From: Mesorhizobium onobrychidis
GTDB taxonomy: Bacteria; Pseudomonadota; Alphaproteobacteria; Rhizobiales; Rhizobiaceae
Direction: 5' to 3'
DNA: 64,000 bases
NCBI RefSeq assembly: GCF_024707545.1
Contig: NZ_CP062229.1
Span: forward strand, 558,001 to 622,000
The notes beneath the pieces were generated by a model that ran no database searches, was not told the origin of the DNA, and was given only the letters and a program-made list of their open reading frames with translations. The translations under genes were made by a program, and so were the position numbers. This document shows, in pieces, positions 18,061 to 40,313 of the stretch; positions within the stretch are counted from its first letter, which is position 1, and each line of letters opens with the position of its first letter.

Positions 18061-18137
<77 letters not shown>

Positions 18138-18205
18138 TAGATTTGCCTCAGCCTCGCTCGATGGCCGAAGCTTTCTTCCAGCCTACTGGAACCATAGTAC
18201 AGACG

Positions 18206-18634
18206 ATGGTCGACAGCATTTCCTCAGAAGTTCGCTCGCGAATAATGGGCCTGATTCGAGGCAGGAACACGCGTCCCGAGATTTATGTTCGGCGGATCCT
18301 CCACGCTGCCGGCTATCGATTCCGCGTTCATCGTAAAGATTTGCCGGGCCGACCAGATATAGTGCTGCCGAAATACTGGACTGCAGTGTTCATAAACGGC
18401 TGCTTCTGGCACGGTCACGATTGCAGGCGAGGTAAGCGCCCGTCTTCGAACACGGAATTCTGGGCAGAGAAGATCGACAGAACCATGGGCCGCGACCGAC
18501 GCAACTCGGAAGCCCTGACGGCGGCAGGCTGGCGCGTAGTGACCATCTGGGAATGCCGCCTCGAAGCCGACACCGATGCCCTGCTGGCAGACTTGGCAGA
18601 CGTCAGCGGACGCGCGACGGTTCTATCGAGTTGA
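18206..18634 (+). CDS. vsr: Very-short-patch-repair endonuclease Vsr
   Basis: A 142-aa Vsr-family nuclease that nicks next to T:G mismatches arising from 5-methylcytosine deamination. D51 (in PGRPDIVLP) and H69 (in NGCFWHGHDC) align with the catalytic Asp and His of E. coli Vsr, and C66/H71/C73/C117 provide probable zinc ligands. The ATG at 18206 matches the usual MVDSxSxEVRSxxM N-terminus; an upstream in-frame TTG is unlikely. It is the first gene after the tRNA, and its end overlaps the convergent methyltransferase gene by 32 nt. Confidence 0.93.
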   Translation: MVDSISSEVRSRIMGLIRGRNTRPEIYVRRILHAAGYRFRVHRKDLPGRPDIVLPKYWTAVFINGCFWHGHDCRRGKRPSSNTEFWAEKIDRTMGRDRRNSEALTAAGWRVVTIWECRLEADTDALLADLADVSGRATVLSS

Positions 18635-19850
18635 CAAGGTACCCGGCAAAATAGCGAGCCAGCTTGGGAGGGACGGCATTTCCGATCATGCGAGCAACAG
18701 GCTCGATCTGCTCCGTCGGATAGAAAACGTATTCATCTGGAAAAGATTGCAGGATGGCTGCCTCTCGAAGGGAAATCCCGCGAACTTGCTTAGTGTCGAA
18801 ATGCCCAAATCGCCCATTTGAAATGCTATGGCATTTCGTCGTGATCGTCGGCGACGGCCGATCTGGATGCATTCGGGTGTAGACATCGCTGAAGCAGCGG
18901 TCGTTGAGACGCTCGTTGACTTTGCGGTGGCAGTCGAGCGTTAGGTCGCCGTATTGGGTGTTTGCCATATAGGCGTTCGACTCTCCGGGCTTGGCGGAAG
19001 ACAGACGCATGAGGTTCAGCTCGCTCAGCGAACGTGCCTTGTGGTTGGGGATTTCCGGATGGACTTCGCCCGCGGCCACAGGGGGCAAGTGTCCGATCGC
19101 ACGGGACACCGAAACCAGAGTTTCGTTCGGATCGGAATCCGGCACCAACAGCTCGGTTTCCATGAGATCGGCGAAACGCTCTTCGCGGACAAGGTCGCGT
19201 CGAACTGCGATTAGAATCGACCGTTTGCGGAATTGAGGGATGCCGAAGTTCGAGGTGCACACCACCTTCGAGCCGGTCACGTAGCCCAGCTGATTGAGGC
19301 GCGCTCTGAAATCTTCCCAGATGCCTCCGTACTTGGCATCCTTGATACCTGCAACATTCTCGGACAACACCATTTCAGGCTTGTAGCGGTCGACATATTC
19401 GGCAGCTTCCGTCAGCAGGCTACGATCCTTCTCCCTTCCCAATCGGCGCTTTTCGCTCAGTTTCTTCCGGGAAAGGCGGGTGAACGGCTGGCAGGGCGCA
19501 CAAATGGCAAAAAGTACCGGAGTGGCTGGAGCTTTCGACCGATAGTAGCCCAGCAGCGAATCAAGCTCCGCACACAGTTCTGCCTGTTGCCCGCCTGGGT
19601 AGTCCTCGGTTGCGGGGAAAACGTCGTAGTGGAGGAACCGTGAGTTTGAATGGTCGACCGATTCGTTGAAATTGTTCTCTGCGTAGGTAAGGCGGCAGCG
19701 ATTATCTTTGTCGATCCCGGCAATCACGTAACCGCCGGCATCGATCAGACCCCGCGTCGTTCCGCCGGCACCGCAAAAAAAATCGACTGCGAGAAAATTC
19801 GGCATCTTTGCCGCCTTTTGCTCGTCTCTCTTGCCGACCGAAACACCCAT
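18603..19850 (-). CDS. DNA (cytosine-5-)-methyltransferase
   Basis: A 415-aa C5 methyltransferase with motif I DFFCGAGGTTRG (residues 23-34), motif IV CAPCQPF (catalytic C120), motif VI SENVAG, motif VIII QFRKRSILIA and motif X GNAVPP. The target sequence cannot be predicted from the variable region by eye. The ATG at 19850 has AGGAAGG upstream and overlaps by one base the stop of the small HTH gene. Its deamination products are the substrates of the neighbouring Vsr. It is presumably the modification arm of a restriction-like module. Confidence 0.95.
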   Translation of the reverse strand: MGVSVGKRDEQKAAKMPNFLAVDFFCGAGGTTRGLIDAGGYVIAGIDKDNRCRLTYAENNFNESVDHSNSRFLHYDVFPATEDYPGGQQAELCAELDSLLGYYRSKAPATPVLFAICAPCQPFTRLSRKKLSEKRRLGREKDRSLLTEAAEYVDRYKPEMVLSENVAGIKDAKYGGIWEDFRARLNQLGYVTGSKVVCTSNFGIPQFRKRSILIAVRRDLVREERFADLMETELLVPDSDPNETLVSVSRAIGHLPPVAAGEVHPEIPNHKARSLSELNLMRLSSAKPGESNAYMANTQYGDLTLDCHRKVNERLNDRCFSDVYTRMHPDRPSPTITTKCHSISNGRFGHFDTKQVRGISLREAAILQSFPDEYVFYPTEQIEPVARMIGNAVPPKLARYFAGYLVNSIEPSRVR

Positions 19851-20023
19851 CACAGTACCTTCCTGATGCGCTTGATATCGGCAGACGTGAACACACGCCA
19901 ACCATTTCTGTCGCGCTTCACATCTTCGATCCTCTTTTCCCGGAACCAGCGCAGGAGGGTGCTTTTCGAGATTCCCAACTCCTTAGCGGCCCCGTCCGTG
20001 GAGTAGGTCTTCTCGCGCGACAC
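19850..20023 (-). CDS. Small MerR/excisionase-type HTH protein
   Basis: A 57-aa protein starting at GTG (20023) with ACGGAG 6 nt upstream. It carries a winged-helix motif: YSTDGAAKELGISKSTLLRWF (helix-turn-helix), then NGWRVFTSADIKRI, which is the pattern of MerR/Xis-like DNA-binding domains. Its TGA overlaps the methyltransferase ATG (TGATG), so the two are translationally coupled. It probably controls this module in the manner of a controller protein; an excisionase role is the alternative. Confidence 0.75.
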   Translation of the reverse strand: MSREKTYSTDGAAKELGISKSTLLRWFREKRIEDVKRDRNGWRVFTSADIKRIRKVL

Positions 20024-20237
20024 ACGTATCTCCGTGAATATATTTAATCATACTCATGATCGGAATGCAGTCAATGGTTGCAAAAGAAATTTCGTTGGAG
20101 TCACAATCGTTTAACGGGTGAGCGGTCGTCCAAAAGACGTCGCACGCGCTGGCCCATCTTACCTAGCACTGCAACATATCGCTTTGCATGGTCGTACATT
20201 TGTCATATGTACGATCGTTACTTGCCTGGAGGCGAAT

Positions 20238-20471: not shown

Positions 20472-20483
20472 GGGAACAAATTC

Positions 20484-22967
20484 ATGGATTCTAAAAAAGT
20501 TTGTCTGTCACTGCTGGCTGCCGAGTCCGAACTCGAGGTCGAAAAGATTCTTGCTTCAGTCCCGGAGATGCAGGATTCAAACAATTGGAAGCCTCTCGAC
20601 GGTCGGGAGACCAACTTCAACGTTACTTCTAACCAGGCATCGGACGGCGGCAAGGCATTGACCGAACTGATGACCAACATGGTCGATGCCGTGCTCCTGA
20701 AACACGCCTACCTCAAGGGAATCGATCCGAAGGGCAAAAAGGCCCCCACCACCATGTACCAAGCGGTCGACCACCTCGTTCATAAGATGCACGGCGGAAA
20801 GCTGGTGAATCTCGGGCCCAACGATCCATGGCTCAAGAAGTTCGCCCAGAGCAATCTCGCGATCGGTATCACAGGTGCGAAGTCGAAGGCGGAAGGCTTG
20901 CCCTGTTATTCATTCGCCGACAACGGTGAAGGCCAGCACCCGGACGATTTTGAGACCACTTTCCTGTCGCTGAGCGCCGGCAACAAGAAATCTATCAACT
21001 TCGTCCAGGGCAAGTTCAACATGGGCTCGTCCGGCGTGCTTCGCTATTGCGGCCGTCGCTGGTTCAAGCTCATCGTGTCCCGTCGTTACGACAAGTCGGG
21101 TCCGTGGGGATGGACCATCATGCGTCGCCGCCCGACCGACGGCGATCGCATGCCTGTGGCGGAGTATTTCGTCATGCCGGGCGGCAAGATCGCAAGGTTC
21201 GATGCCGAGGAGCTGTTTCCCTACCACACGATCGAGAAGAAGCGTTACGACCGCATGCATTTGAATGCGGGCACGATCGTGAAGCTCTACGACTACCAGG
21301 TCGGGTCCCGGTTTCTCAGCTTCCGCGGTTCGCGCGATGCACTTAACGAGAACTTGGTCGAGACCATCCTGCCATTCCGCATCCTTGATCTCAGGCAGAA
21401 GCCGGATCCGAAGCGCGGTCCGGACCGCGCATTGGGGGTCGACCCACGCCCTTTTTACGGGATGGAATTCCTGCTCCTTAATTCCCACAAGGAAGAAGGA
21501 CTGGAAGGCGAAGACGAAGCCTCGGGCGAAGACAGGGTTTTTGTCGGCAAGTTTTCGCACCCGAATCTCGGCGAAGTGAGCATCAGCGCGATCCCGTTGA
21601 AGCGCGACATCCCAGGGTGGCTCAAGCCGAACAACTCCAACAATCGTGTCTTCCATGCCGTCAACGGGCAGGTCCAATTCAAGCAGACACGCGGCTATCT
21701 TTCCACCACATGCGGATTTCCTGCCTTAAAGGACCGCATCGTTGTTATCGTTGATGCCAGCAATCTGACATTCGCGGCACATAACGAGGTGTGGAAGGGC
21801 GACCGGGAGCACCTTAGCAACACGCTCGATGGCGAGCGCTACGTCGAAGAGGTCACCAAGACAATAAAAGAGTCACAGGCACTGAAGGATCTACAAGACA
21901 AGATCGCCGCCGAGGAGCTGGAGCGCGCCGCGAAGACAGAGGGCAATTCGCTGTTCCAGAAGCTTGTCGACAGAGATCCCAGTCTCGCCGGCTTGCTGTC
22001 GAGCCGCGATCCTTCGATCAAGCTGCCTGCCTCCGGAGGGTCCAAGGCTGGCGGAAAAGAGAGCGGAACAGCCGAGGAGTTCGAAGGATCCTACAGCCCG
22101 ACCTTTATTCGGTTGGAGGAACGCGTTGCGAAGAACGCTGTCGAAATTCCGCTGGGCCGCAGCCGACCGCTGGGAGCCAGAACGGACGCGGAGAACGATT
22201 ATCTGCAGAGACCAGACAATCCCGGCCGAGTGATCCTTCACGAAGAGATTCGGAAGAAGTTCGGCGTACGCGAGCATCTGAAGGACGGTCGACTGACCCT
22301 CTACCTTTCTCCGGACAAGGAAGATGTTGATGTCGACGACACATTCACATTTCGGATCGCATTACAGGACGAAGCAATGCCGCAGGCCGTTGTATCGGAA
22401 GAGGTGACCGTGCGGGTCGCTGCCGCGGTCGATGAAGACGATGAGAAAAAAGTAAAGCCGAAGCCGAAGCCGAAGCCCGATGTCAGTGCCGGGGATAAGA
22501 AAGCAGGCGATGGGGAAGATGCCCCGACCCACGGATTGCCGGCCGTCATTCTCTTGACCAAGGACGGGCGAGAAGTGTCCGGCTATCAGACCGAAGAATG
22601 GCCGGATGACTTCTCCGAGACCGACGGTGGCCTGATTCAGGATCTCGGGCAGGAGAGCGTTTACAAGATCAACTATGACAACGTCTATCATATCAAATAC
22701 CGAAAAGCGGCGAAGGACGGCGTTGCCCGCGACGTCATTACCGAGAAGTACATCCTCGGAATGCGCATTCTTTTGTTAGGCTGCGAGCACGCGCTTCGCA
22801 GCATGCATCCGACCAACAGCTCCGGAAATAGTGGCATAGGGGAGTTCATGGACGACTTTCGTCGTATGGCGGCTAGAGGCGCCGCATCCACTGTGCTGGC
22901 CTTAGCTGAAAATCTGCCGAAGATCGTCGACGCATCTTCAATTCAGCAGGCAGAGCAGGTGGAGTGA
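20484..22967 (+). CDS. Large GHKL-fold (MORC/MutL/Hsp90-like) ATPase, putative defence protein
   Basis: An 827-aa protein with a GHKL ATPase domain at its N-terminus: motif N ELMTNMVDAV (E61, N65, D68), motif G1 ADNGEG (residues 145-150) and the G2-like GKFNMGSSG lid (176-184). Residues 430-500 are helical and charged. Residues 665-690 form a Lys/Pro-rich linker with KPKPKPKP. A C-terminal domain of about 130 residues follows. Comparable MORC/MutL-like ATPases are known in restriction-modification loci with Vsr and C5 methylases, which is exactly this neighbourhood. It probably acts as a DNA-sensing or clamp ATPase. No nuclease motif is evident in it. Confidence 0.8.
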   Translation: MDSKKVCLSLLAAESELEVEKILASVPEMQDSNNWKPLDGRETNFNVTSNQASDGGKALTELMTNMVDAVLLKHAYLKGIDPKGKKAPTTMYQAVDHLVHKMHGGKLVNLGPNDPWLKKFAQSNLAIGITGAKSKAEGLPCYSFADNGEGQHPDDFETTFLSLSAGNKKSINFVQGKFNMGSSGVLRYCGRRWFKLIVSRRYDKSGPWGWTIMRRRPTDGDRMPVAEYFVMPGGKIARFDAEELFPYHTIEKKRYDRMHLNAGTIVKLYDYQVGSRFLSFRGSRDALNENLVETILPFRILDLRQKPDPKRGPDRALGVDPRPFYGMEFLLLNSHKEEGLEGEDEASGEDRVFVGKFSHPNLGEVSISAIPLKRDIPGWLKPNNSNNRVFHAVNGQVQFKQTRGYLSTTCGFPALKDRIVVIVDASNLTFAAHNEVWKGDREHLSNTLDGERYVEEVTKTIKESQALKDLQDKIAAEELERAAKTEGNSLFQKLVDRDPSLAGLLSSRDPSIKLPASGGSKAGGKESGTAEEFEGSYSPTFIRLEERVAKNAVEIPLGRSRPLGARTDAENDYLQRPDNPGRVILHEEIRKKFGVREHLKDGRLTLYLSPDKEDVDVDDTFTFRIALQDEAMPQAVVSEEVTVRVAAAVDEDDEKKVKPKPKPKPDVSAGDKKAGDGEDAPTHGLPAVILLTKDGREVSGYQTEEWPDDFSETDGGLIQDLGQESVYKINYDNVYHIKYRKAAKDGVARDVITEKYILGMRILLLGCEHALRSMHPTNSSGNSGIGEFMDDFRRMAARGAASTVLALAENLPKIVDASSIQQAEQVE

Positions 22968-23223
22968 TAAGGCACCGATAGATGACAAACTCAAGCTGAA
23001 TTGAGGTGCAGGAAGGTGGATCGCCGCAGGGTGCGGCGATCCGGCCTTCGCGACCGCTCTGCCGGAGAGATGGGGAGCAATTTTGGCCGAACGGACCCGC
23101 CGAGCTTAAGCACCGGGGTTCCTAGACGATCCCGACCACGCCCGCCTTCGATCTCACCGATGCTCTGGAACCCAATCCGCCTCAAATGACTTGTTCTCAG
23201 ATAGATCTCGAAGGGAGAAACCA

Positions 23224-23428
23224 TTGTCCGCACCGAAGGCAATGGATGTCGTCCTCGAAAAGCTGCCTTTGAAGGATCGGCGCCTACGTGCCCGACGACT
23301 TGCTGGAAGACTGGTTCGCGCCGGGAGCGGGCATGAACCCGGTCAGTAAGAAAGCGCTGGCGGCTGCCAAGACTTACGGATGGCGCTTCGCATGCAAGTT
23401 CAAGCACTACCCCAAACCGATGGCGGCC
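23224..23428 (+). pseudogene. Degenerate copy 1 of a 77-codon repeated gene
   Basis: Clearly homologous to the intact genes at 32075 and 40007, including the TTG start, the AAGGGAG site and about 90 bp of upstream sequence. It has an extra A in CTTTGAAGGATC (others read CTTTGAGGATC), which shifts the frame near codon 17. The 3' end diverges after CACTACCCCAAACCGATGG. Confidence 0.7.
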
Positions 23429-23446
23429 ACTATGGCCATGAAAACG

Positions 23447-23782
23447 TCAGTGACCGGATGAGGAACCCGAGCCACTGGACGGCTCATCGCGGCCGGACGT
23501 CTCCGAGCTGCCGACCTTGGCTTCTGGCATATTCTTCAGGGTTCTGATCACCCTGTACCGCGGTTCCATGCGCTCGTGGAGCACTCGAACGACAATGACG
23601 CCGATCGTATCGTCCGAAAGGCGACCCTTCATGTAATAGAGGCAATGCGCGGCACCTCCGCGCCTTCTCGCGGCGATCTCCAGGTGCAGCAGTCGAACAC
23701 CAGGTGCGAGTTCGGCGCTCGATGGAACCTGGTCGATCCGGATCTTCCGAGATTAGCTCGATACCAAATTCGATGATGCGGG
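23447..23782 (-). pseudogene. 5'-truncated ParE/RelE-like toxin remnant
   Basis: An open frame without a start codon encodes ELAPGVRLLHLEIAARR, then AHCLYYMKG and IGVIVVRVLHERMEPRYRV. This matches the C-terminal half of ParE/RelE-fold toxins (a hydrophobic strand, then RVLHERMD). A Ser/Gly-rich tail of about 25 residues follows. The N-terminal half is missing where the sequence abuts repeat copy 2, and no antitoxin is visible. Family assignment is by pattern only. Confidence 0.45.
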
Positions 23783-23786
23783 CGTA

Positions 23787-23954
23787 CCCGACGACTTGCT
23801 GGAAGACTGGTTCGCGCCGGGAACGGGCATGAACCCGGTCAGCAAGGAAGCGCTGGCGGCGGCCAAGACTTACGGATGGCGCTTCGAATGCGAGTTCAAG
23901 CACTACCCCGAACGGATGGAGGGCGTGTTCTGGAAATGGGTGCCGGCGATCTGA
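23787..23954 (+). pseudogene. 5'-truncated copy 2 of the 77-codon repeated gene
   Basis: Nearly identical to the last 55 codons of the intact copies (PDDLLEDWFAPGTGMNPVS through KWVPAI and the same TGA), but the first 22 codons and the ribosome site are missing. Homology continues downstream through the CxxCxGxG gene to about 24430. Confidence 0.75.
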
Positions 23955-24040
23955 TCCGCACAATTGCCATCGGCCCCTTGGCGCTTCAATGATCGAGATG
24001 ATTGAGATGGTCGCGAGGCGTGATCGCTCTCCTGATCGCC

Positions 24041-24346
24041 TCAGCCTATCGGCGTCGTCACCTTCCCGGTTCCGCCGCATTCGGGGCAGGTGCGGCCGTC
24101 GATCATGCCTGTCCCGGCGCAGCGGTGACACATATGCTCGCCGGCGCCAGCAATGCCTGCCGCGTCGGCATTGGCTTGATCTTCCGCAAGTTGCGCAGGT
24201 TTGCCTTGCAGCTTGCCTCGCAACCGGGCGGCGGTCTCGTCGACTTCGAGCGGCTTGCTGCCCGGCAGGCCTTCGCCGGATTGGCCGATGGTTTCGTTGC
24301 GCGGCCGGTCGCTGGTGCCTGTCGTTATCTTTGCTTTCTGAGCCAT
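24041..24346 (-). CDS. Small CxxCxGxG zinc-finger protein, copy A
   Basis: A 101-aa protein. The C-terminus has two DnaJ-type knuckles (CHRCAGTG and CPECGGTGKV), which should bind one zinc. The N-terminal half is polar, with RPRNETIGQSGE and a helical segment LEVDETAARLRGKLQGKPAQLAEDQA. The start MAQKAKITTG at 24346 is shared with the near-identical copy at 40314-40625. Both copies are adjacent to a copy of the 77-codon gene. Function unknown. Confidence 0.65.
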   Translation of the reverse strand: MAQKAKITTGTSDRPRNETIGQSGEGLPGSKPLEVDETAARLRGKLQGKPAQLAEDQANADAAGIAGAGEHMCHRCAGTGMIDGRTCPECGGTGKVTTPIG

Positions 24347-24844
24347 TGCAGTACTCTTTTGCGGTGGCACAGCTCTCAGTTTCTGCGGTTCGAACGCCTC
24401 AGCTCCGCAGAGGTTCCGGTTGGCAATCGCCGCGGCAGCCTTTGCGTCAGCACTGCCTCCAGCGCCGCAAAAAAGTCAACCGCAAAAAATCGTGGGCCTT
24501 CCCTTGATCGGCCTGAAGATTCGGCATCGAATTAGCCTTGCCGACACCCAATTCCTCCGAATCCCCAATGCCGAGTCAGCAACGACCGATGTGGGCACTG
24601 CTGAAAGCAATCGCCTATATACCGGATTCTGGCAAGGAGGTTGTGTGTGCGGCGCCAGGCTAGCGCCCGTTATCGTGTTAGGCCCGTGCTGGATCGTTGG
24701 CTGTTGATAAATGCAATCCAACAAGTCCTGCTCACCAAAACAAGCCTACAGGAAGCGAAGGCAGAAGCGAATTGCTCGTTAGGCAATTGTGGAAACCTCG
24801 GAGCGAGATTGAGCGCAACCGGGAAAAAACTGTACGCTCATAAA
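24347..24844. other. Intergenic region upstream of the PLD gene
   Basis: About 500 bp with no convincing gene. The first 85 bp are still homologous to 40626-40711, the duplicated segment. The remainder has lower G+C and leads into the PLD gene, so it presumably holds that operon's promoter; no clear -35/-10 pair was identified. Confidence 0.4.
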
Positions 24845-25345
24845 ATGAGCAGCATCACCCTTCTGAGTCGTAACGCGTTGTCGCGATTTGCCGATCTCGT
24901 ATATGTTAAGAGGGACGATCTATATCGGTTATGGTTGATTTCGCCTTGGATCAGCGTAAGTGCGGAAGGTGCGTACCCGGCGGAACGAATTCGCGATTCT
25001 ATCGGCCGGCGGAGGGTTTCTGTGTGTATAGTAACCCGCCCTCCGGTATATGTTTGGCATAGCGATGCAGTACGAGTGCTGAGTTCAATCCCAGGGTCTC
25101 AGGTGTTTCATTGTCGGGAGCTCCATTCGAAATTGTATATTGCGGAATGCAATGGCTTTCGAGGAGCAGTCTTCGGTTCCCCCAATCTCACTCCGGGGGG
25201 AGAATCTCGCAATGAGGAGCTAGCAGTCGAGTTTCGTACGACGGTTTCAACGCGGGAGAACGAGGTAGCGGCACTGATCAATGACTTGGTCCGCTACGCC
25301 TCGCAACTCCGCGATCAAGACAATGTAACACTAGCGACAGGTTAG
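24845..25345 (+). CDS. Phospholipase D-like (HKD) nuclease-type protein
   Basis: A 166-aa single-domain PLD protein. The HxK motif is in ELHSKLYIAE (H94, K96), followed by the conserved GSPNLTPGG turn. Single HKD proteins of this size dimerise to make one active site and act as nucleases; comparable ones occur in DISARM (DrmC) and Dpd (DpdK) defence loci. The ATG at 24845 is chosen for the length and lack of support upstream. It ends 5 nt before the AAA ATPase gene and is expressed with it. Confidence 0.8.
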   Translation: MSSITLLSRNALSRFADLVYVKRDDLYRLWLISPWISVSAEGAYPAERIRDSIGRRRVSVCIVTRPPVYVWHSDAVRVLSSIPGSQVFHCRELHSKLYIAECNGFRGAVFGSPNLTPGGESRNEELAVEFRTTVSTRENEVAALINDLVRYASQLRDQDNVTLATG

Positions 25346-25350
25346 ACGAG

Positions 25351-26491
25351 ATGGCGACTCTTAAGGAATGGTTCTGCCTAGGCGGGGATCGCAAGAGCTT
25401 CAAGCCTCAGGTCCTCCAGGATCGCCAACAGGTCTTCTGCCATGAACAAGAGATTGATGGCGGTATCCTTAGCACTATCGAGCGCCAATTCGCTGCTGGC
25501 GAGCCTATTAAGATGATGCTGTGGGGAGGCTGGGGGGTCGGGAAAACTCATGCGGTCAACCACATGGCGTGGTGGCTGGAGCAGCACCTAAACGAGTACC
25601 CAGCCGAGGCGATCATTGTCGAGCTCAGTGACGTAACCAAGAAATCTCGCTTTGACATTCTAACTCGCTCTTTCCTGGACAAACTCACCCTGCCGCGGCT
25701 TATTGAACTGGTCCACGACTATTCCAGTAAAGCTGGTGGGACACATATCTCAGACGGTTTGGCGCGCATTGGAGTAGTTTCCCATGTAGCGGATGCCATC
25801 GCAAAGCTTCTGCTCGCGAGGCGCGGAGACACACCACCGCCTGACGTTCTGACTGCTTTTGAATACTTGAAGGGTGGAAAGGGTGGCTCGAACATAGGAC
25901 TCGGCCAGCCGCTGAATACAAGTGAGGAATTCTACAGTGTCCTTTTGGCAGTTGGGCATATCTATCAAATAACGACTGGGAGACTTCTTGTCTACGTATG
26001 CGACGAGGCTGCCAAACTTGAGGATGTCGACAAGGACGATGCCTCTCGGCAGCACTGGATGTCTGTAAATCGTCTTATATTCGACGACAAGAATGATGTG
26101 TTCGGATTTGTCTATACGATGAGCGGTGTCAGTGAGCGACATCTGGCAAAGGTCCTTCAAGATAATCAGGTCCTGAACAGGCTGGGTCGAGCAAATCTCA
26201 TCGAATTGCGAACGTGATAGGTTCCTTAGGAATCTTGTCACCACCTTTGTTGATAAATCATGTGTCGAAAAGAAATTGGCTGACGAACAACTACCTTCCG
26301 AATATGATTGGCCAGCGTACCCTTTCACTCCCAGCGCTCGATCCGAGTTCGTTGCCTATTGGAGTCAAGATGCAGAAAATGCGAAGCCGCGCGATATCTG
26401 CGACAAGTTGAATGACGTGGCGTTTCAAGCCTTAAAGCAAGGCAAGGGGCTCATTGACGAGGACTGCCTGCGCCAGGTGGGGCTGCTCTAA
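25351..26491 (+). pseudogene. AAA+/P-loop ATPase gene interrupted by one frameshift
   Basis: The first frame (288 codons, to TGA at 26215-26217) has Walker A GGWGVGKTH (residues 59-67) and Walker B LLVYVCDEA (about 213-220). After residues NLIEL the +1 frame carries on with a fitting continuation: RFLRNLVTTFVDKS, then DICDKLNDVAFQALKQGKG, to TAA at 26489-26491. Together they would give about 379 residues. The break near 26205-26215 has no long homopolymer, so a real mutation, a sequencing error or programmed shift are all possible. The end overlaps the convergent gene by 4 nt. Confidence 0.7.
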
Positions 26492-27198
26492 TGAGACGCT
26501 CTGACCAGGAAACCGTCCACAACAGGGCTCCACGAAGCGTCCCCCCAAGCCATACGAACCATCGGTAGATCAAAGGCAGAATGAAATGCACAGGCTCCGC
26601 GCAAATCGCGTGGGTGGGATGTCGCGTTGAGTATGACGCCCACAGAGGCAGTATGTTGTATGCTGTCGTATGCCAGCGAATACGAGACGCCGAGCTCGAC
26701 CAATGCCGACAGATACCAGATAAGTAACGGATGCTCTCCACGTTCGAAGACGGCATCCGCTCCATCCTTCCGGCGCCTCTCCAAGGAAGTAGTGACGTCG
26801 GCCCAGAAATCGGTTCCAACCCGGATTTCAGTCTTCGCCACTTTGATCAGCTTTCCGTCCACATTTTGCTTTGAAAGCAGTACAACTTGCCCATCTGAGG
26901 CAAGGGCGACCTCGCAGAGGCTTAGCCAAAAGCCCTGGTTCAAGAGCTCGCAATCCATTTCGCTCAGTCGCAACATTGCCTCGAATGAATGGTCGGTTAC
27001 CGTCAGCTCACTGGCAAGCGACGCTGCTTTGACTGAGCGGCCAGCGGCGGTGATGATGGAAGTGTTGGAGCCAAACACTCCCACCGTAGCCTTGGTGCCT
27101 ACGTATATTGCAGGTGCTTTCGGCTCAGAAAAGAATTCCACTTCCCCAAGCGCGACCTGACCGAAACGGTCAACTCCATAAACCTTCGCACTAGGCAT
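26488..27198 (-). CDS. Uncharacterised protein, last gene of HerA operon
   Basis: A 236-aa soluble protein from ATG 27198, overlapping the upstream gene by 8 nt. The N-terminus (SAKVYGVDRFGQVALGEVEFF) and the IYVGTKATVGVFGSNTSIITAAGRS stretch read as beta-rich. A central segment (RLSEMDCELLNQGFWLSLCEVALAS) is amphipathic. I recognise no domain or catalytic motif. Its position as the distal gene in an overlapping operon implies a stoichiometric or regulatory partner of the ATPases. Confidence 0.65.
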   Translation of the reverse strand: MPSAKVYGVDRFGQVALGEVEFFSEPKAPAIYVGTKATVGVFGSNTSIITAAGRSVKAASLASELTVTDHSFEAMLRLSEMDCELLNQGFWLSLCEVALASDGQVVLLSKQNVDGKLIKVAKTEIRVGTDFWADVTTSLERRRKDGADAVFERGEHPLLIWYLSALVELGVSYSLAYDSIQHTASVGVILNATSHPRDLRGACAFHSAFDLPMVRMAWGDASWSPVVDGFLVRASH

Positions 27199-27829
27199 TA
27201 GCGCTCCTGTAGCGCACCAACCCCCCCGCGATTGGAGTTGAGAGCACCCAGGAATTATTGTGAATGGCATAATCTAGCTCAGGGTTCAGTTGATATGCGT
27301 CCTCTTGGTCGATCTGGCATGCAAACCCTAGGTAGGCCAGGCGAGCGCAAACTGCGCTTGTATAGCTCCATGTGCCCCATTCCTTCTTCGGAAACATTTG
27401 CAGTCTGAGGCCTGAAATTGTCATACGTCTCTCACTCTTCAGCCGAGCAAAGGCGGTTGCAATACATCGATCGAATTGTGACAGATTGGTCCTATGGACA
27501 ATCACCCTAAATGGCCCCCCCGCCGAGGACAGACAGGGAAGTGCGTCTGCATGCCCCAATTTCAGGGCGTAGCCGAGCATGGCTGAAAAAACCCTTGCCT
27601 CCCAAGATCCTCCAGCCTTCTCGATGCGTCCACGAAGTAGCTTAGGAGTGAGTGCGAGATAGAGCTTTGCCTGTTTGCAAACCTCAAGGAGACCCTCAGC
27701 AGCAAACGCCTCAAGCTGGTGCAAATCATCAGAGTAGAACGATATTCCGCCGAATCGCAGCTCTGCTACCGCGACCACACTAGCCGGAATATCTGCCCTG
27801 CGTAGCCATAGTCTGTCAGGCTTCAGCAA
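27191..27829 (-). CDS. Uncharacterised protein in HerA operon
   Basis: A 212-aa protein starting at TTG (27829), 14 nt inside the upstream ATPase gene. It begins MLKPDRLWLRRADIPASVVAVAELRF and later contains CKQAKLYLALTPKLLRGRIEKAGGSW and PFRVIVHRTNLSQFDRCIATAFARLK. Four-gene overlaps make coupling likely. No family recognised. The start lacks a good ribosome site, consistent with coupled re-initiation. Confidence 0.6.
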   Translation of the reverse strand: MLKPDRLWLRRADIPASVVAVAELRFGGISFYSDDLHQLEAFAAEGLLEVCKQAKLYLALTPKLLRGRIEKAGGSWEARVFSAMLGYALKLGHADALPCLSSAGGPFRVIVHRTNLSQFDRCIATAFARLKSERRMTISGLRLQMFPKKEWGTWSYTSAVCARLAYLGFACQIDQEDAYQLNPELDYAIHNNSWVLSTPIAGGLVRYRSANA

Positions 27830-28865
27830 GGTCGTTCACAAATGCGCGAATCTCCTCGACACTGAGTATTCGCCCCTCAAACTGCATCTCGTCATAAACC
27901 CAGGCAAGCGCCTGCAATAGGACCCGAGGTGATGCTGCGCCTCCAGTTTTCGCGTGCAAGGCGTTCACAAGTGCAGCCAAACCGTCTGCGCCGAAAGGGG
28001 CAGCGGGGTCCCCCGAATAACCGGTCGGCCGGAATGATGCCATTCGCTCGACTGCAAATGAGACTGCTTCCGCCTCGTCGAGAGCTGGCAGCGCAATACC
28101 GGGTCGAATGCCGACAAGAGTCTTCAATTCAGAAGGTAAAATCTCCAGCGCGGTCGACTCGGCGCGGCTAGCGACGCCCAAAACGACGGATAGCCAATTG
28201 CTATTTGCACTGAGTAGACTTCTAATGCTCTGCATTATTCGCTGGCCTTGCTTTGGGTTCCCAAAGGCCAAACGTTGGAATTCATCCAAACACAACATTA
28301 CGCGCTGAGATCTTGCCGCGAAGGCAGATATTATCTGACTCAATATCTCAGCCGCCCGGATGTCATCGTCAATTCTTGTTGAGATGCCGCTGGCGTTCCG
28401 CAAATCCTTCAACGAAGGTCGCCCTCCGCCAATCCAGTCGTGGATCAATGATCGTTCCGCTGCCCCCCCATGAATATAGGTTTGGGCCGCTCTGGCAAGA
28501 TCTGATTCAGCAGAGCCAAATTCCTGAATAGCATTCGCGACATTCTCTAGCGGCCATGATGCAAGTACGCGGCGATAGACATCTAAGAACTGGCGCGTCT
28601 GCTCTGGCACCTCAACGTAGCTGGGTAGAAAGCGATGTGACCCGGCTTCTTTCTTTGCCATCTCAATCAAATGAAGAAGGAAGTGGGTCTTTCCGGCTCC
28701 AAAATTCGCCCAAACAATATCGAGAGACGACTCCGACCTGTTGAACATCTGGTGTACCAGCCGCTGCGCGCGACGTTTTCCGTCGGGTCGTCCCGCCCAG
28801 GTACTTGCTGTTTCAGGACTCGCAGTGAACGCGAACACCCCGGGATTAAATAGCCCGTCCCTCAC
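27816..28865 (-). CDS. AAA/P-loop ATPase in HerA operon
   Basis: A 349-aa ATPase with Walker A NFGAGKTH (residues 54-61) and Walker B VMLCLDEFQRL (189-199). The FxAGKTHFL form and the LDEFQ form resemble STAND/ORC-like and BREX-type ATP-binding proteins. The C-terminal helical part (PRVLLQALAWVYDEMQ) resembles an AAA lid. The start is GTG, overlapping the previous stop (GTGA). It is a distinct protein from the frameshifted ATPase on the other strand, so the locus encodes three different P-loop ATPases. Confidence 0.75.
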   Translation of the reverse strand: MRDGLFNPGVFAFTASPETASTWAGRPDGKRRAQRLVHQMFNRSESSLDIVWANFGAGKTHFLLHLIEMAKKEAGSHRFLPSYVEVPEQTRQFLDVYRRVLASWPLENVANAIQEFGSAESDLARAAQTYIHGGAAERSLIHDWIGGGRPSLKDLRNASGISTRIDDDIRAAEILSQIISAFAARSQRVMLCLDEFQRLAFGNPKQGQRIMQSIRSLLSANSNWLSVVLGVASRAESTALEILPSELKTLVGIRPGIALPALDEAEAVSFAVERMASFRPTGYSGDPAAPFGADGLAALVNALHAKTGGAASPRVLLQALAWVYDEMQFEGRILSVEEIRAFVNDLAEA

Positions 28866-30151
28866 CTCAAAGCTCCCCTGCGCCTGACTGACACGAATTC
28901 TGCGTCGCGGCTATATCTGCCAGCAGAGGGCCGGACAACATCTGGATGCTGTCTAGCAAACGCTAAAATCGAGGTCCGAACTTCGTTCAAATTCAGCTTA
29001 GTCCCGCCCTCGGCCGCTAGTATAGCCAAGCTAAGACTTAGACGGTCAATGGAGACTAAGGGCGTGCCGGACGTGATAAGCGTCATTGCGTCATTTAGTA
29101 ACTCTATCGTGAGTTCTGGCGTACCCGATATGAGATTCTCTGGCCCAAATAGCGCTATAAGATTTTCATTCACCCATGCATTATAAGTCGTTTGCGAGCC
29201 AATCGTTCGGGCTGCGTCTGATAGACGTGCAGTGGGCATATAGAAATACTCGTAGGAACGGGACTGTGAGCCCTTTTCCAAAAGCCCTAGGTCAACAAGC
29301 GTCTCCATCCGAGACGAGGTGCGATGCCATGCGGTGGATGTTGAGCCTGGCGATTCGCCGTGACGTGCAGCCCGCTCAATGTCGGCCAGTGCATCGAACA
29401 ACGGTTGTTTCTGTGAACTGGACATGGATCGAGATTTTTCGGACTCCTCAGCTAATCCCGAGATAATTTCGGCATAAATAAAGGCAGCGTCCTTTTTCTT
29501 AATTGGTTTCCCGACTTCGGCTAGTGCCAGCACCAGACCTTTAAAAACGTCGAAATCCGCTCGCACAAACGACCACGCGTACACGACCCGCTCAAGTCCG
29601 ATGAGATAAGGATTTGTGTCGCCTGACCTTGCACGAATTTTGGCAACTAAACGTCCCTCTGGGGTTAAGTCCGCACTTCTGGATACGAAATCCAACAGAA
29701 CCGCCCAGTCAAAGATGTGCGAAAGGCCGGTTTTTGACCCGCTCTTTCCGCCGACTGTCACTGCACCAACCCGGGAGGGAACATCGGGAAAGCTAAGCAT
29801 ATAGTCCTGCCACCATACCTGCGGAGGACCAGCATCCGTTGCCCACAACGCTGTGTGATCAGATATTGTCTGAACTCTTAGCTGAGGATATCGATCTTTT
29901 CCGCGCCGGACAATCGAACCAGACTCGTCGACTACATCACATAGCGACTTCGACAAAAGGTATTCGGCCACATGCGAAGCGTCTTCATCTGATACCTGCA
30001 CGAATCTGGTGAGCCGCTGCGACAACTCCTCGATAACTCGGTACTCGTTTCCACCCAGATCAAGCGCTACTTCCAGTAGCACAGAAATGTGCCCCAACCT
30101 GAGCATGAACTCGTCTAGATTGAGAAGAACTCTTCCTTCTGGCGGCGACAT
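28862..30151 (-). CDS. Uncharacterised 429-aa partner of HerA-type ATPase
   Basis: A 429-aa soluble, mainly helical protein coupled to the HerA gene by a one-base overlap (TAATG). Noticeable segments are LLNLDEFMLRLGHISVLLEVALDLG near the N-terminus, a central IFDWAVLLDFVSRSADLTPEGR, and winged-helix-like stretches (METLVDLGLLEKGSQSRSYEYFYM), suggesting wHTH domains. No catalytic motif is seen. HerA proteins usually act with a nuclease or adaptor encoded next door; this protein holds that position. Confidence 0.65.
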   Translation of the reverse strand: MSPPEGRVLLNLDEFMLRLGHISVLLEVALDLGGNEYRVIEELSQRLTRFVQVSDEDASHVAEYLLSKSLCDVVDESGSIVRRGKDRYPQLRVQTISDHTALWATDAGPPQVWWQDYMLSFPDVPSRVGAVTVGGKSGSKTGLSHIFDWAVLLDFVSRSADLTPEGRLVAKIRARSGDTNPYLIGLERVVYAWSFVRADFDVFKGLVLALAEVGKPIKKKDAAFIYAEIISGLAEESEKSRSMSSSQKQPLFDALADIERAARHGESPGSTSTAWHRTSSRMETLVDLGLLEKGSQSRSYEYFYMPTARLSDAARTIGSQTTYNAWVNENLIALFGPENLISGTPELTIELLNDAMTLITSGTPLVSIDRLSLSLAILAAEGGTKLNLNEVRTSILAFARQHPDVVRPSAGRYSRDAEFVSVRRRGALR

Positions 30152-31665
30152 TAGGCCTCATAGCCCCCGTGTGCCGTGGTGCGTGGCCGCATCGAGACAA
30201 CACAGAGCCGGTTTAGAGCCGGCGCGTTTGCGCATGAAAACGTGGTAGTGCCCTGGTCTAGTCGACGTAGCAAATCGTCTACCGACACAGGTTGGCTGTC
30301 CACATTTGTCGCGCTTGGTAACGGCGACCTGATGTTTTCTCTCGCGACCGCCGCGTCTTTAGGGCTCGTGAGTTGGTGAACAATCAACGTCTCGATCTGG
30401 GATGTAAGCCTTGGATCAAGTGCGCTAGGTTGTTGTGTGGCTACAGCAAGGGACAGTCCGTAGTTTCTTCCCTCTTTCGCGTATTTGACAAATGTGTCAC
30501 GCGCCATTCCGTTAGGTCCGGTACCTGCAAGGTTGTGTGCCTCATCCATCATCACCCAAGTGCGTGGAACTGACGTCGAAATGATTTCGGCTAGGCGTGT
30601 TGATTCTTCTTTGGTGAGATCACCAGCCAGGTCTAGCCGTTTCTGAGCGAAAGATGCATCCCTCCGCTCGCGCATGAGCCTGCGAAGCAAAGTTGATACA
30701 ACCACGTTCTTCAGTGGGTCTGGCAAGCGAGCAAGCATTAGTATGGATACCCGGAAACTCCCTATGACATCGGTAAGCGGGGTGTTAGTCCCGGAGAACA
30801 AAGCTTGGGCGCCGTACGTGCCAACCCTCTGTCGTATGCTTCGAACGGTTGTGTCTTGGTATACTCCTTGTATTTCAGAACAGTTCTCCAGAAAAGCACT
30901 CAGATCGGCGAACGTAAACTGTTGGTCTGGGGCTATCCTATTCCCATTTCTGACATCGGTATACCCGTCTCTGCTGACATAGTTCAGCATGTCGGCTATC
31001 AGCATGCCCCTAGGTTCCGCGAATACATCAACCTCAAACAAAGAAGCCCAATCGTCGAGCTCCAGTTCGTGCGCCGCTATATAAAGCTGTCTCACGCCAG
31101 GCGGATCAATCGCTGGGTTCTGAAATCCCGCAGGTATCCAAAGGTCTACAGAAAGAGCACGAGACTGGAACCCAGCTTTATCCATAATGGCGAACTGCTT
31201 GCGAACTTCTGCGCTTCCGTCATTAATAAGTGGAATTGTTGAGGTCCAAAAAATGTCCATGATATCCAGGACCAACGCGCCGCGCGGGGTTGCCAATTCT
31301 GCCAGCCGCGTTGATCCTGCTCCTGAGGCTAAGCCCTCCAAAAGCAACCCGAGCGAGTACGATTTGCCGGTTCCTCGCTTGCCGAAGATACCAACAACCT
31401 GCTCACCAGTTATATCGAGCCATAGCCGCCGCCGAGCCCCTGCCTCTGCTAGTGTGCCAAGGAGCAGCTTATCTCGCCCGCGCTGCCCAGCATCGCCCAC
31501 TACCAAGTCGCCCGGCTGGCGGGTCACTTCAGGTTCGAGCCGATAGTTCGTCATCTCAGATTGCTCATCCAGCAGTTTGATGCTGACCAACATATCTATG
31601 CATTGGCGGATTCGCGCAACTCGCGCCTCAGGAATGACGAAATTTTCCGTGCGGGTTTCTAACAT
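30151..31665 (-). CDS. HerA-type hexameric DNA-translocase ATPase
   Basis: A 504-aa HerA/FtsK-superfamily ATPase. The N-terminal beta region (about residues 40-90) precedes Walker A GKRGTGKSY (95-103). Walker B is RTWVMMDEAHNL (368-379), and an arginine-bearing LAVATQQPSALDPRL segment follows, as in HerA. It probably forms a hexamer that pumps or unwinds DNA for a partner nuclease. It is the promoter-proximal gene of a five-gene overlapping operon. The nearest nuclease candidate is the PLD protein of the convergent unit. Confidence 0.85.
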   Translation of the reverse strand: MLETRTENFVIPEARVARIRQCIDMLVSIKLLDEQSEMTNYRLEPEVTRQPGDLVVGDAGQRGRDKLLLGTLAEAGARRRLWLDITGEQVVGIFGKRGTGKSYSLGLLLEGLASGAGSTRLAELATPRGALVLDIMDIFWTSTIPLINDGSAEVRKQFAIMDKAGFQSRALSVDLWIPAGFQNPAIDPPGVRQLYIAAHELELDDWASLFEVDVFAEPRGMLIADMLNYVSRDGYTDVRNGNRIAPDQQFTFADLSAFLENCSEIQGVYQDTTVRSIRQRVGTYGAQALFSGTNTPLTDVIGSFRVSILMLARLPDPLKNVVVSTLLRRLMRERRDASFAQKRLDLAGDLTKEESTRLAEIISTSVPRTWVMMDEAHNLAGTGPNGMARDTFVKYAKEGRNYGLSLAVATQQPSALDPRLTSQIETLIVHQLTSPKDAAVARENIRSPLPSATNVDSQPVSVDDLLRRLDQGTTTFSCANAPALNRLCVVSMRPRTTAHGGYEA

Positions 31666-31869
31666 ACTGCGGGCGCGAGTTTCCCCCCATAGGCTACATT
31701 CTGATAGCTAACCCGGTCACAATCTCGTCACAGAGGTTGCAAATTTGGGACTGCAACCAGCTTGACTATGGCAAAGCCGGAGGGTTACCCTCTAACGTCA
31801 ACCGGCTGTAGCCATTGAGTTATTTCCGGGGTGTGAACGATTTCGATCTTGATTGCGACCGCTGGCTGG

Positions 31870-31919
31870 CTGCCCTCCGAATGCAGAGATCATAGGTTAG
31901 AATCCTATCGGGTGCGCCA
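31870..31919 (+). other. Partial tRNA-Arg 3' end: attachment-site copy at right end of island
   Basis: 50 nt matching tRNA-Arg positions 18088-18137 (anticodon loop to CCA) at 45 of 50 bases. There is no 5' half, so it is not a functional tRNA. Two of the five differences keep the T-stem paired (C:G to T:A), while the TTCGAA loop is changed to TTAGAA. It is best explained as the att site left by integration at tRNA-Arg. The rest of 31666-31869 shows only the probable promoter region of the HerA operon. Confidence 0.75.
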
Positions 31920-32074
31920 ACTTGCGATCTGCCAAACTCTCATTTCAGCCACATCTCATAAAGCTGAATGTCGAATCCTGTCCTACCCGCATGCCGCCTC
32001 GCTCTCACCGATGGGTCTGGAACCCAATCGGCTTCGAACGACTTGTTGTCGGTAGCTCTTGAAGGGAGAGACCA

Positions 32075-32308
32075 TTGTCCGCACCAAAGGAAATGGATGT
32101 CGTCCTCGAAAAGCTGCCTTTGAGGATCGGCGCCTACATACCCGACGACTTGCTGGAGGACTGGTTCGCGCCGGGAACGGGCATGAACCCGGTCAGCAAG
32201 GAAGCGCTGGCGGCCGCCAAGACTTACGGATGGCGCTTCGAATGCGAGTTCAAGCACTACCCCGAACGGATGGAGGGCGTGTTCTGGAAGTGGGTGCCGG
32301 CGATCTGA
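32075..32308 (+). CDS. Repeated small gene, intact copy 3 (77 aa, unknown function)
   Basis: A 77-aa protein starting at TTG with AAGGGAG 8 nt upstream; an ATG six codons in is the alternative start. The sequence runs MDVVLEKLPLRIGAYIPDDL, then LEDWFAPGTGMNPVS, YGWRFECEF, KHYPERMEGVFWKWVPAI. It is rich in aromatic residues near the C-terminus and has no signal peptide. Four copies are present in the window, two intact. Conservation with the upstream 90 bp suggests the unit is duplicated with its own regulatory region. No family recognised. Confidence 0.65.
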   Translation: MSAPKEMDVVLEKLPLRIGAYIPDDLLEDWFAPGTGMNPVSKEALAAAKTYGWRFECEFKHYPERMEGVFWKWVPAI

Positions 32309-32434
32309 TCCGCACAATTGCCATCGGCCCCTTGGCGCTTCAGTGATAGAGATTGCCGCGGATCTGTCAAACCGAGTGGACTTGAAGGCCATGCGTACCT
32401 ATCTGCTAATACGTTCTCAGCGAATGTTAGGCAT

Positions 32435-34189
32435 ATGAGTAACGAACGCATTCAACGTCGGCTTGCCGCCATTCTGGCGGCTGACGTCGTCGGCTACAGT
32501 CGGCTCATGGAGTGGGATGAAGCAAGCACGCTGACGGAGCTGAAGCTCCGGTGGAGCGATATGGTGGAGCCGCTCGTCGCCCGCCATCAGGGCCGTATCT
32601 TTAAGACGATCGGCGATGCGATACTGGCCGAGTTCGGCAGTGCCATTGGCGCCGTCGAATGTGCGATCGAAGTGCAGCAGGCCATGGCCGCGGCGAATGC
32701 CGACGTTCCCGCGGAACGGCGCATCGTGCTGCGCATTGGTGTCCATCTCGGCGATGTAATGGTCGAGGGCAGCGATCTTTATGGCGACGGCGTCAACGTG
32801 GCCACCCGCATCGAGGGGCTCGCCGATCCGGGGGGCGTGGTGATTTCAGATGGTATCCACGAGCATATGCGCGGCCGCCTGGGCATCGATTTCGTCGACG
32901 GCGGCAATCGCGAGGTCAAGAACATCGAGCGCGCGCTGCACATCTGGACCTGGTCGCCGAAGACAGCCGCGCCCGCCGATGCAGTCGGTGGATTGCAGCC
33001 GCCGCTCGGCAAGCCGTCGATTGCGGTGCTGCCGTTCGACAACATGTCGGGCGATCCCGAGCAGGGCTATTTTGCCGACGGGATCGCCGAGGACATCATC
33101 ACCGACCTTTCGAGGGTCTCGGGCCTGTTCGTCATCGCCAGGAATTCCTCCTTCGCCTACAAGGGCCAGGCACCGGATGTGCGCAAGGTGAGCCGCGAGC
33201 TCGGCGTCCGCTACGTGCTGGAGGGAAGCGTGCGCCGGGCCGCCAACCGTATCCGCATCAACGCCCAGATGATCGACGGGACGACGGGCGGCCATCTCTG
33301 GGCGGAGCGCTATGATCGCGATCTCGAAGACATCTTCGCGGTTCAGGACGAGGTGACCCGCACCATCGTCAGCGCACTCGAGGTGAAGCTGACCGCCGGC
33401 GAGGAGGCGCGGCGCGGCAAGCACGGCAAGGTCGATCCGGAGGTCTACGATCTGATTGTCCGCGCCCGTCAGACCGCCTTGCAATTTCGTCCCGAGGCAT
33501 CGGTTGAAGCGCGCAAGATGCTAGAGCGCGCACTGGCGATAGATCCGGGGCTGGCTCTCGGCTATTCGGGGCTCGCCATGGTCACCTTCGCCGACTACGC
33601 CAACCAGTGGAACGGCGCGACCGAGGACAATCTGACCAAGGCGCGGGAACTGGCGCACAAGGCGATCGAAACCGACGACACCGAGCCGCAAGGCCATATC
33701 GCGCTTGCGATCTGCCTTTCCTGGATGCGGCGCCTGGACGAGGCGGAGCATGAAGCGGAGCGCGCCATCGCTCTCGACCCCAATTCCGCACAGGCCTTCA
33801 GCGTACTTGGCAGCGTGAGGGATTTCCAGGGGCAGCATGAAGATGCGGTTGCGCTTTTTACCCGGGCCCATCGGCTCGATCCCCAGTTCGACATGTCCCT
33901 GCACCTAATGGGAAGGGCCCTCCTGGCGCTTGGCCGCTTCGACGAAGCCGAGATCGCGTTCAAGCGGCGGCTGGCGCTGGCGCCGCGGACGGACATGACG
34001 CGCTTCTATCTCGCCTGCCTCTATGGCCTCACCGGACGCCATGACGAAGCGCGCCGCTACTGGCAGGAGACGCAGCAGGTCAATCCGAACTTTTCCGTTG
34101 AACGCCTCGGTCAGATACTCCCCTATCGGAATCCCAGTCAGCTCGGTCGGCTGGTGGAGGGGCTGCGCAACGCCGGCATCGCGATCTGA
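32435..34189 (+). CDS. Class III adenylate/guanylate cyclase with TolB-like and TPR region
   Basis: A 584-aa protein. The cyclase domain (residues 1-170) retains metal-binding D17 (ADVVGYSRL) and D61 (TIGDAILAEF) and the transition-state pair N121/R125 (NVATRIEGL), so it should be active on ATP or GTP. Residues 195-330 resemble the TolB-like/CadC-type domain (IAVLPFDNMSGDPEQGYFADGI). The C-terminal 230 residues hold TPRs (ALAIDPGLALGYSG, AIALDPNSAQAFSVLG). There is no membrane segment. Such multi-copy cyclases are typical of rhizobia. Confidence 0.9.
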   Translation: MSNERIQRRLAAILAADVVGYSRLMEWDEASTLTELKLRWSDMVEPLVARHQGRIFKTIGDAILAEFGSAIGAVECAIEVQQAMAAANADVPAERRIVLRIGVHLGDVMVEGSDLYGDGVNVATRIEGLADPGGVVISDGIHEHMRGRLGIDFVDGGNREVKNIERALHIWTWSPKTAAPADAVGGLQPPLGKPSIAVLPFDNMSGDPEQGYFADGIAEDIITDLSRVSGLFVIARNSSFAYKGQAPDVRKVSRELGVRYVLEGSVRRAANRIRINAQMIDGTTGGHLWAERYDRDLEDIFAVQDEVTRTIVSALEVKLTAGEEARRGKHGKVDPEVYDLIVRARQTALQFRPEASVEARKMLERALAIDPGLALGYSGLAMVTFADYANQWNGATEDNLTKARELAHKAIETDDTEPQGHIALAICLSWMRRLDEAEHEAERAIALDPNSAQAFSVLGSVRDFQGQHEDAVALFTRAHRLDPQFDMSLHLMGRALLALGRFDEAEIAFKRRLALAPRTDMTRFYLACLYGLTGRHDEARRYWQETQQVNPNFSVERLGQILPYRNPSQLGRLVEGLRNAGIAI

Positions 34190-34361
34190 TCAGATATTCC
34201 GGTCCACCAGGCAGATGTGGCAGCAGCCGGAACCATGGCCCGGAGTCCAGGTGACGTTCTCGAAACGCACACCTGTCGCCTCGAACAGGCCGCGATCGAA
34301 TGCGCCGGCAATGCGGCACAGAACCGCGAGCTCTCGTCGCCAACGCCGGCATCCAGTCAGC

Positions 34362-40240: not shown

Positions 40241-40313
40241 TCCGCACCATTGCCATGGGCCCCTTGGCGCTTCGGTGATCAAGGTTGCCGCGAGATCGCT
40301 CCCCCTGATCGCC

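Follow-up and report, generated by a model that had tools for sequence, protein, structure and literature searches.

A HerA and PLD gene module of Mesorhizobium onobrychidis, with differing DNA-modification genes beside it in other genomes: a candidate variant of the HerA/FtsK capture systems

The closest described relatives of the locus reported here are the HerA/FtsK capture systems of Rakesh, Aravind and Krishnan (2024; PMC10853773). In the sections of that paper that treat it, the Orc/Cdc6 class carries an active restriction endonuclease (REase) and an inactive REase inserted before a C-terminal winged helix-turn-helix (wHTH) domain, and the passages on HKD nucleases do not join these enzymes to HerA. 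Here we describe a seven-gene module encoding PLD, AAA1, HerA, U429, AAA2, U212 and U260, found in a stretch of 64,000 nucleotides of Mesorhizobium onobrychidis (contig NZ_CP062229.1, positions 558,001 to 622,000; the window). The gene set, its order, conservation and partners, the protein families and two folds were computed. We consider it fairly probable that the module is an ATP-driven restriction complex of restriction-modification type, with exchangeable modification partners, carried on an integrated island. Its genes in the window are:

24845..25345, plus strand: PLD, a single-HKD nuclease, in an open frame
25351..26217, plus strand: N-terminal part of AAA1, a putatively Orc/Cdc6-like AAA+ ATPase with weak DnaI, TnsC and ORC1 profile matches
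26218..26491, plus strand: remaining, C-terminal part of AAA1, displaced into a different frame by the disruption of the gene (82 bits, frame 26177-26488)
26488..27270, minus strand: U260, in an open frame, with a predicted Hint (intein-like) fold and no conserved splicing residues
27191..27829, minus strand: U212, which in the relative L010 is joined to the AAA2 C terminus
27816..28865, minus strand: AAA2, an AAA_22 ATPase (Pfam AAA_22, 4e-8), weakly BrxD-like
28862..30151, minus strand: U429, predicted from a fold model to be a FokI/SspB-like multi-wHTH DNA-binding protein
30151..31665, minus strand: HerA/FtsK-type translocase (DUF87 and HerA matches; probable start ~31554)

By analogy with the systems as portrayed in those sections, the module is best read as a PLD variant of HerA/FtsK capture. 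Both have a HerA/FtsK motor, a nuclease and mobile neighbourhoods; the ATPases of the module may be Orc/Cdc6-like, as those of the published class are, and the fast-evolving protein with 2-4 wHTH domains, like DndG, SspB or FokI, that the paper describes in a subset appears comparable to U429, at modest Z scores. In contrast to the published systems as given there, the module has a PLD nuclease, two AAA genes, U212, the Hint-fold U260 and adjacent modification genes, and no REase was seen in it; Pfam found no PD-(D/E)XK-type family in the window proteins. The preliminary description of this DNA had called the set unnameable. No PADLOC system explains the gene set, in keeping with that description; its architecture is nevertheless close to that of the capture systems in the sections cited. 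Among the titles and openings of abstracts covered, none describes a set of PLD with HerA or an operon of this type with a Hint subunit; supplementary tables of the published work may already draw the set.

Seven abutting genes had been described in the window. Six of them (PLD, U260, U212, AAA2, U429 and HerA) are open frames with short overlaps; the seventh, AAA1, is not a single open reading frame (ORF). Its frame from 25351 stops at 26217 after 288 residues, and a family profile built with the window's N-terminal part and without its C-terminal part scores 408 bits in frame 25285-26214 and 82 bits in frame 26177-26488. AAA1 is one frame of 349-392 residues in six relatives. Judged from sequence, the split reflects either a genuine disruption of the frame or a fault in the assembly. 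With AAA1 split, the copy of the module in the window is probably impaired. The 4-nucleotide overlap once ascribed to the PLD/AAA pair concerns the displaced 3' end of the split AAA1. The minus-strand frame listed as a 236-residue unknown is present and extends to 260 residues (U260), overlapping U212 by 80 nucleotides. The relatives of HerA begin at residue 38 of the window frame (~31554), and the true start probably lies near 31554. What had been taken for a convergent arrangement is a local inversion: the five minus-strand genes (HerA to U260) are inverted with respect to the relatives, three of which carry a single operon in one direction. With these two corrections, the split AAA1 and the inverted five-gene block, the seven-gene set is real. 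Together with degenerate repeats at 23.1-24.4 kb, the split and the inversion would also fit a decaying remnant that is functionless in this host. We give this reading, which is compatible with the others discussed below, appreciable though minority weight; against it, the other six frames are intact and the AAA1 split may be an assembly error.

A HerA scan of contigs from 84,980 species returned 15 pattern matches, of which three were confirmed, at 57-60% identity: L008 (Verrucomicrobiota), L009 (Bryobacteraceae, Acidobacteriota) and L010 (Acidobacteria gp4). The window HerA is 57-62% identical to its relatives. All three loci were found through HerA alone and also carry the other six genes, so the co-occurrence is beyond chance; the seven genes lie together in four of four close loci, window included, and the conserved association on which the preliminary description had staked its proposal is thus borne out. 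The order in L008-L010 is PLD-AAA1-HerA-U429-AAA2-U212-U260, in one direction, with gaps of at most 17 nucleotides or overlaps, and in L010 AAA2 and U212 form a single protein of 545 residues. C5 methyltransferase and Vsr genes stand at one end of the operon in all three (Pfam; in L010, masking hides part of the methyltransferase, which was identified by eye). In the window, they occupy the opposite end of the tRNA-Arg island that holds the module, a likely modification part that lay beyond the span originally described. U212 and U260 were found solely in the four C5/Vsr-type loci.

Distant relatives are sparse. HerA-alignment searches were run at E 1e-30 with, mostly, the first four or five candidates per genome scored, so that the counts are lower bounds: at least 1 of 398 genomes in the window's phylum and at least 1 of 61 in its genus (its own in both cases), at least 3 of 396 in the phylum of L010 and at least 2 of 367 in that of L008, each including the locus's own genome. 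A U429 search in the class gave at least 1 of 385, and a HerA sequence search in the family (1e-15) at least 1 of 297, again the window's own genome. Three new loci, L018, L019 and L020, keep PLD, AAA1, HerA and a gene at the U429 position, with AAA2 in L018 and L019; the U212 and U260 profiles matched nothing in these three. Profiles derived solely from the four close loci were used on four distant loci that contributed nothing to them. In L018-L020, these held-out profiles recovered HerA at 5e-72 to 3e-101, AAA1 at 9e-15 to 2e-43, PLD at 8e-11 to 6e-20, and AAA2 at 3e-45 and 2e-41. The U429 profile reached 1e-8 in L020 and 0.0016 in L019, and profile-profile comparison of the two U429 groups gave 98.3% (2e-14).

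The fourth distant locus, L060, was a blind find on a viral contig, made in a scan of viral contigs with a seven-member HerA alignment that led to three confirmed loci including this one. Its HerA is full length and 34% identical, and the order PLD, AAA1, HerA, U429 was recovered with each gene identified by a held-out profile. The core is followed by an Eco57I/N6-type methyltransferase and a PC4-like protein, as in L020; in each, the PC4-like gene is downstream of this methyltransferase (15318-16274 in L020, 15707-16684 in L060). We defined family membership as HerA identity of ~30% or more over the full length, and took as an outgroup six loci with HerA 21-27% identical or matching over a short stretch (L005, L006, L007, L059, L061 and L062). 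All eight family loci have the core PLD-AAA1-HerA-U429, and none of the six controls does: profiles found no PLD, AAA1 or U429 in the six remote-HerA loci, and L061 and L062, with their short HerA matches, have none of the module partners. L001-L004 and L011-L017 (short or duplicate stretches) were left uncounted, as were L057 and L058, which hold relatives of a GHKL-like protein and not of HerA. Two families without a Pfam match look alike by eye near the module in L009 (686-2798) and L020 (16289-17461 and 18207-19547); the 446-residue protein of L020, from one of these families, touches PADLOC SspG at 0.019.

The modification genes beside the core differ between loci. In the window, they lie on the island together with the following features:

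18061..18137, plus strand: tRNA-Arg(ccg), probable integration site, whose 3' 51 nucleotides (18087-18137) are the left repeat
18143..18634, plus strand: Vsr-family endonuclease (Pfam Vsr, 8e-29)
18603..19901, minus strand: C5 cytosine DNA methyltransferase, candidate self-marking enzyme (Pfam DNA_methylase, 1.9e-39)
20484..22967, plus strand: 827-residue protein, GHKL/MORC-like by eye (Pfam: SGT1 at 0.13)
31869..31919, no strand assigned: copy of the tRNA-Arg 3' end, right island repeat (90% identity over 51 nucleotides)

The window, L008 and L009 encode a C5 methyltransferase with Vsr, L010 Vsr with the partly masked methyltransferase, L019 an N6/N4 methyltransferase, and L020 and L060 enzymes of the N6 (Eco57I) type. 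L018 encodes SspD (1e-134), SspC (0) and SspB (2e-106; all PADLOC), adjoined by the gene of a class-V aminotransferase that is probably a cysteine desulfurase. At 7067-19150 of L018, the five-gene core directly adjoins the SspBCD phosphorothioation genes, and this core is a candidate restriction partner for Ssp. Every one of the eight family loci encodes a modification gene, and because the core is kept across phyla beside differing DNA-marking enzymes, it may plug into several self-marking chemistries. With the nuclease side constant, one restriction module beside differing DNA marks would make the logic of self and non-self in modification-linked defence testable.

The layout in the window itself invites a different interpretation, in which two unrelated systems share the island. 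One, at 18-23 kb, would be a restriction-modification set of cytosine methyltransferase, Vsr and a GHKL (paraMORC-like) protein; the other, made of the seven genes, would serve a different purpose or recognise self by its own means. The two parts lie 4.9 kb apart with repeats between them; the part of PMC2292703 that deals with GHKL (MORC/paraMORC-like) families describes restriction-modification operons in which they occur together with cytosine methylases and Vsr; and GHKL relatives occur in plasmid regions without an annotated module, where our profiles found none. We nonetheless judge this interpretation unlikely. In 3 of 3 close relatives, the seven genes have C5 methyltransferase and Vsr genes next to them (the methyltransferase of L010 by eye), with no GHKL-like relative within the 18-21 kb examined around them, and other modification genes stand beside the core in the distant loci. 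The 827-residue protein has no relative in the stretches examined of the seven other family loci and no PADLOC or NCBIfam family; on plasmids, its relatives are found close to genes for PAPS reductase (Hymenobacter, Ensifer pC). It is either an accessory or a separate gene associated with restriction-modification.

The HerA and PLD identities given in the preliminary description both hold, with weak matches to named families. HerA matches DUF87 and the HerA family, as well as PADLOC mad8 (3.5e-15). Residues H94, K96, S112, N114 and E125 of PLD are invariant in 7 of 7 sequences. The PLD profile has two matches in the PDB, 7clg (4e-4) and 2c1l (4e-3), which we take to be SauUSI, a type IV enzyme, and BfiI, respectively; DrmC is matched at 0.014 by the window protein and at 5e-7 by that of L020 (PADLOC). 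With 7clg as its nearest PDB sequence, PLD might belong to a type IV-like, modification-dependent system, in which the module would cut marked DNA and the neighbouring modification genes would be competitors or decoys. Cutting its own mark would be suicidal for a host, and all eight loci encode a modification gene, which makes this proposal quite improbable.

In AAA2, the Walker A and Walker B motifs are invariant in 6 of 6 sequences. For the AAA1 profile, the matches to TnsC and ORC1 have E values of 0.002-0.004 and that to DnaI is better, though all are weak. A PHROGs scan returned unspecific matches to HerA, terminase and DnaC-like families, along with a few uncharacterised ones. These TnsC/ORC/DnaI-like ATPases and the HerA/FtsK motor, the recombinases near four loci and the copy on a viral contig would accommodate a role other than defence, in which the module would serve a mobile element in the transfer, partition or integration of its DNA. 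We regard this as very improbable, since the conserved set has no recombinase, modification genes always accompany it, and restriction nucleases give the closest matches to the PLD profile.

Fold models suggest, with modest scores, that U429 is a FokI/SspB-like winged-helix protein. U260 is assigned a Hint (intein) fold by fold comparison, from a model of low confidence in its middle (mean predicted local distance difference test, pLDDT, of 57). The Pfam Hint family is absent from all four U260 sequences even at E 10, Foldseek found nothing at E 0.001, and a sequence search of the PDB found nothing meaningful. The four sequences end in SH, SN, GR and AN, neither an N-terminal Cys/Ser nor a C-terminal His-Asn is conserved, and U260 is a standalone ORF in 4 of 4 loci, not inserted in a host protein. 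An active intein was rejected on account of the missing splicing residues and the standalone ORF; the Pfam intein family was found in none of 21 related genomes. The protein thus resembles intein and Hedgehog Hint domains in predicted fold and differs from them in these two respects. A Hint fold in a non-splicing subunit of a restriction-modification-like operon would, if true, be unexpected.

For a restriction complex with exchangeable partners, the choice of target and the order of events may be as follows. The methyltransferase (in the window C5, with Vsr) would mark, and by this protect, host DNA, and U429 would read DNA as a FokI/SspB-like multi-wHTH protein. Orc/Cdc6-like AAA1 and AAA2 would load or license the complex on DNA without the mark, the HerA translocase would pump this unmarked DNA, and the BfiI/SauUSI-like single-HKD PLD, probably as a dimer, would cut the pumped DNA. 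U212 would extend AAA2, and U260, particular to the C5/Vsr version, would probably have a structural role or act as an adaptor. A broader proposal, which we consider less likely than not, is a universal engine of PLD, AAA1, HerA and multi-wHTH protein with swappable modules for chemically unrelated marks (C5 methyl, N6/N4 methyl, phosphorothioate) and a few swappable adaptors; the C5/Vsr adaptor would then be a former intein turned subunit, possibly a sensor of the methyl mark.

Several observations weigh against a restriction complex of this kind. The assignment to defence is a computational one, drawn from sequence, and the window's AAA1 is broken. Matches to named families are weak overall, and U212 has none in Pfam, PADLOC, NCBIfam and PHROGs scans and matched no known fold. 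U429 homology in L018 is weak by hidden Markov model (E 0.47); Foldseek gave no U429 match at 0.001 and an irrelevant top match, and in fold comparison the Z of U429 barely exceeds the usual background, while Cdt1, TubR and ORC score high as well. In the window, the distance from PLD is 4.9 kb to the methyltransferase and 6.2 kb to Vsr, and the GHKL-like gene lies between. The methyltransferases of the window, L008 and L009 share 25-31% mutual identity, so their partnership with the module may be mere co-location; the Vsr proteins of the four close loci are 47-52% identical. Lastly, the window methyltransferase fits DISARM DrmMII (1.4e-63) nearly as well as the best general PADLOC model (MTase_II, 3.1e-65).

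Compared by sequence, the set has the defining features of none of the named systems tested. In PADLOC, Pfam and NCBIfam scans, DISARM, BREX, DndFGH and MADS gave partial matches only, their defining sets being unmatched, and were rejected; the earlier statement that DISARM helicases and Dpd modification genes are absent holds in the same scans. Dpd was rejected as DpdA (TGT) and its partners are unmatched, PLD alone touching DpdK at 7e-4, far under the NCBIfam cut-off. DndFGH and SspFGH resemble the module in having an ATPase, a wHTH protein (DndG) and HerA/FtsK and in operating beside a modification module, and L018 adjoins SspBCD; in PADLOC, which holds at least SspG, the core proteins scanned had no match to DndF, DndG, SspF, SspG or SspH. 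DndH is touched solely through its HerA part (3e-4), and the SspFGH paper (PMC8092258) names no PLD in its relevant part. DISARM also has a C5 methyltransferase and a PLD protein, to which those of the family may correspond (the window methyltransferase matches DrmMII but MTase_II slightly better, and PLD is DrmC-like, best in L020), whereas the module has HerA and AAA genes instead of the DrmA helicase and DrmB, for which PADLOC gave no match among ten window proteins or in the relatives' scanned proteins. The BREX-related capture (BRC) systems, in the portion of PMC12839542 that describes them, share a HerA anchor; unlike BREX and BRC as portrayed there, the seven-gene set has no PglZ, BrxC-size ATPase, DUF4007, GNAT or TGT. 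MADS is approached by the HerA match to mad8 and by the L020 methyltransferase (mad2, 6e-24); no mad model beyond these two matched, mad8 being the only one in the window, and weak touches on mad8 come from the AAA1 of L020 and from AAA2.

Among plasmids, the window HerA matched 53 records, none covering 80% of it; the best, from Haloplanus, is 27% identical and lies beside a BREX-type ATPase and 7-deazaguanine genes. Comparison of U429 and AAA2 with the 380-residue and BrxC-like proteins of Haloplanus found no kinship. For L020 HerA, 5 of 122 records cover 80% at 21-25% identity, of which two were examined as outgroups (L006 and L007), and for L018 HerA 1 of 8 does (Haloplanus). Plasmid searches with U429, AAA1, AAA2 and U260 returned no record. 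One phage record was matched, over 24%, and in the viral-contig scans 0 of 10, 1 of 2, 0 of 36, 3 of 68, 0 of 43 and 0 of 6 pattern-matched stretches were confirmed.

The tRNA-bounded island of the preliminary description is supported by the tRNA-Arg(ccg), the 51-nucleotide repeat of 90% identity and lowered G+C: 0.50-0.60 in kilobase bins across 18001-32000, against 0.575-0.671, mostly above 0.61, in the other bins. No integrase was seen in the island ORF lists. At this tRNA, five of six relatives had enough sequence for comparison. The island content is absent from them (E 1e-5) except for the repeats at 23.1-24.4 kb, and two lack even these. A clean empty site was not found among them; the relatives retain the tRNA with other DNA behind it, which fits an integration hotspot. 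One of them, L052, has a counterpart, 96.6% identical, of the window sequence after the right repeat (31999-34214), and 8.5 kb of other DNA lies between the tRNA and this counterpart. Other genes occupy 9600-18300 of L052, at the same tRNA site; by eye, one ORF there looks multiubiquitin-domain-like and another JAB/ThiF-like, and because of these the tRNA-Arg site may be a hotspot for defence genes. Copies, 90-98% identical, of a sequence containing a short ORF lie at 23148-23999, 31999-32360 and 39946-40292, flanking the seven-gene block on both sides and recurring at 39.9 kb; copies also lie near the same tRNA in three of the five relatives. Plasmid records, for the most part from Rhizobium, Sinorhizobium and Agrobacterium, match 24.9 kb of the window, with identities reaching ~78% among the matches listed.

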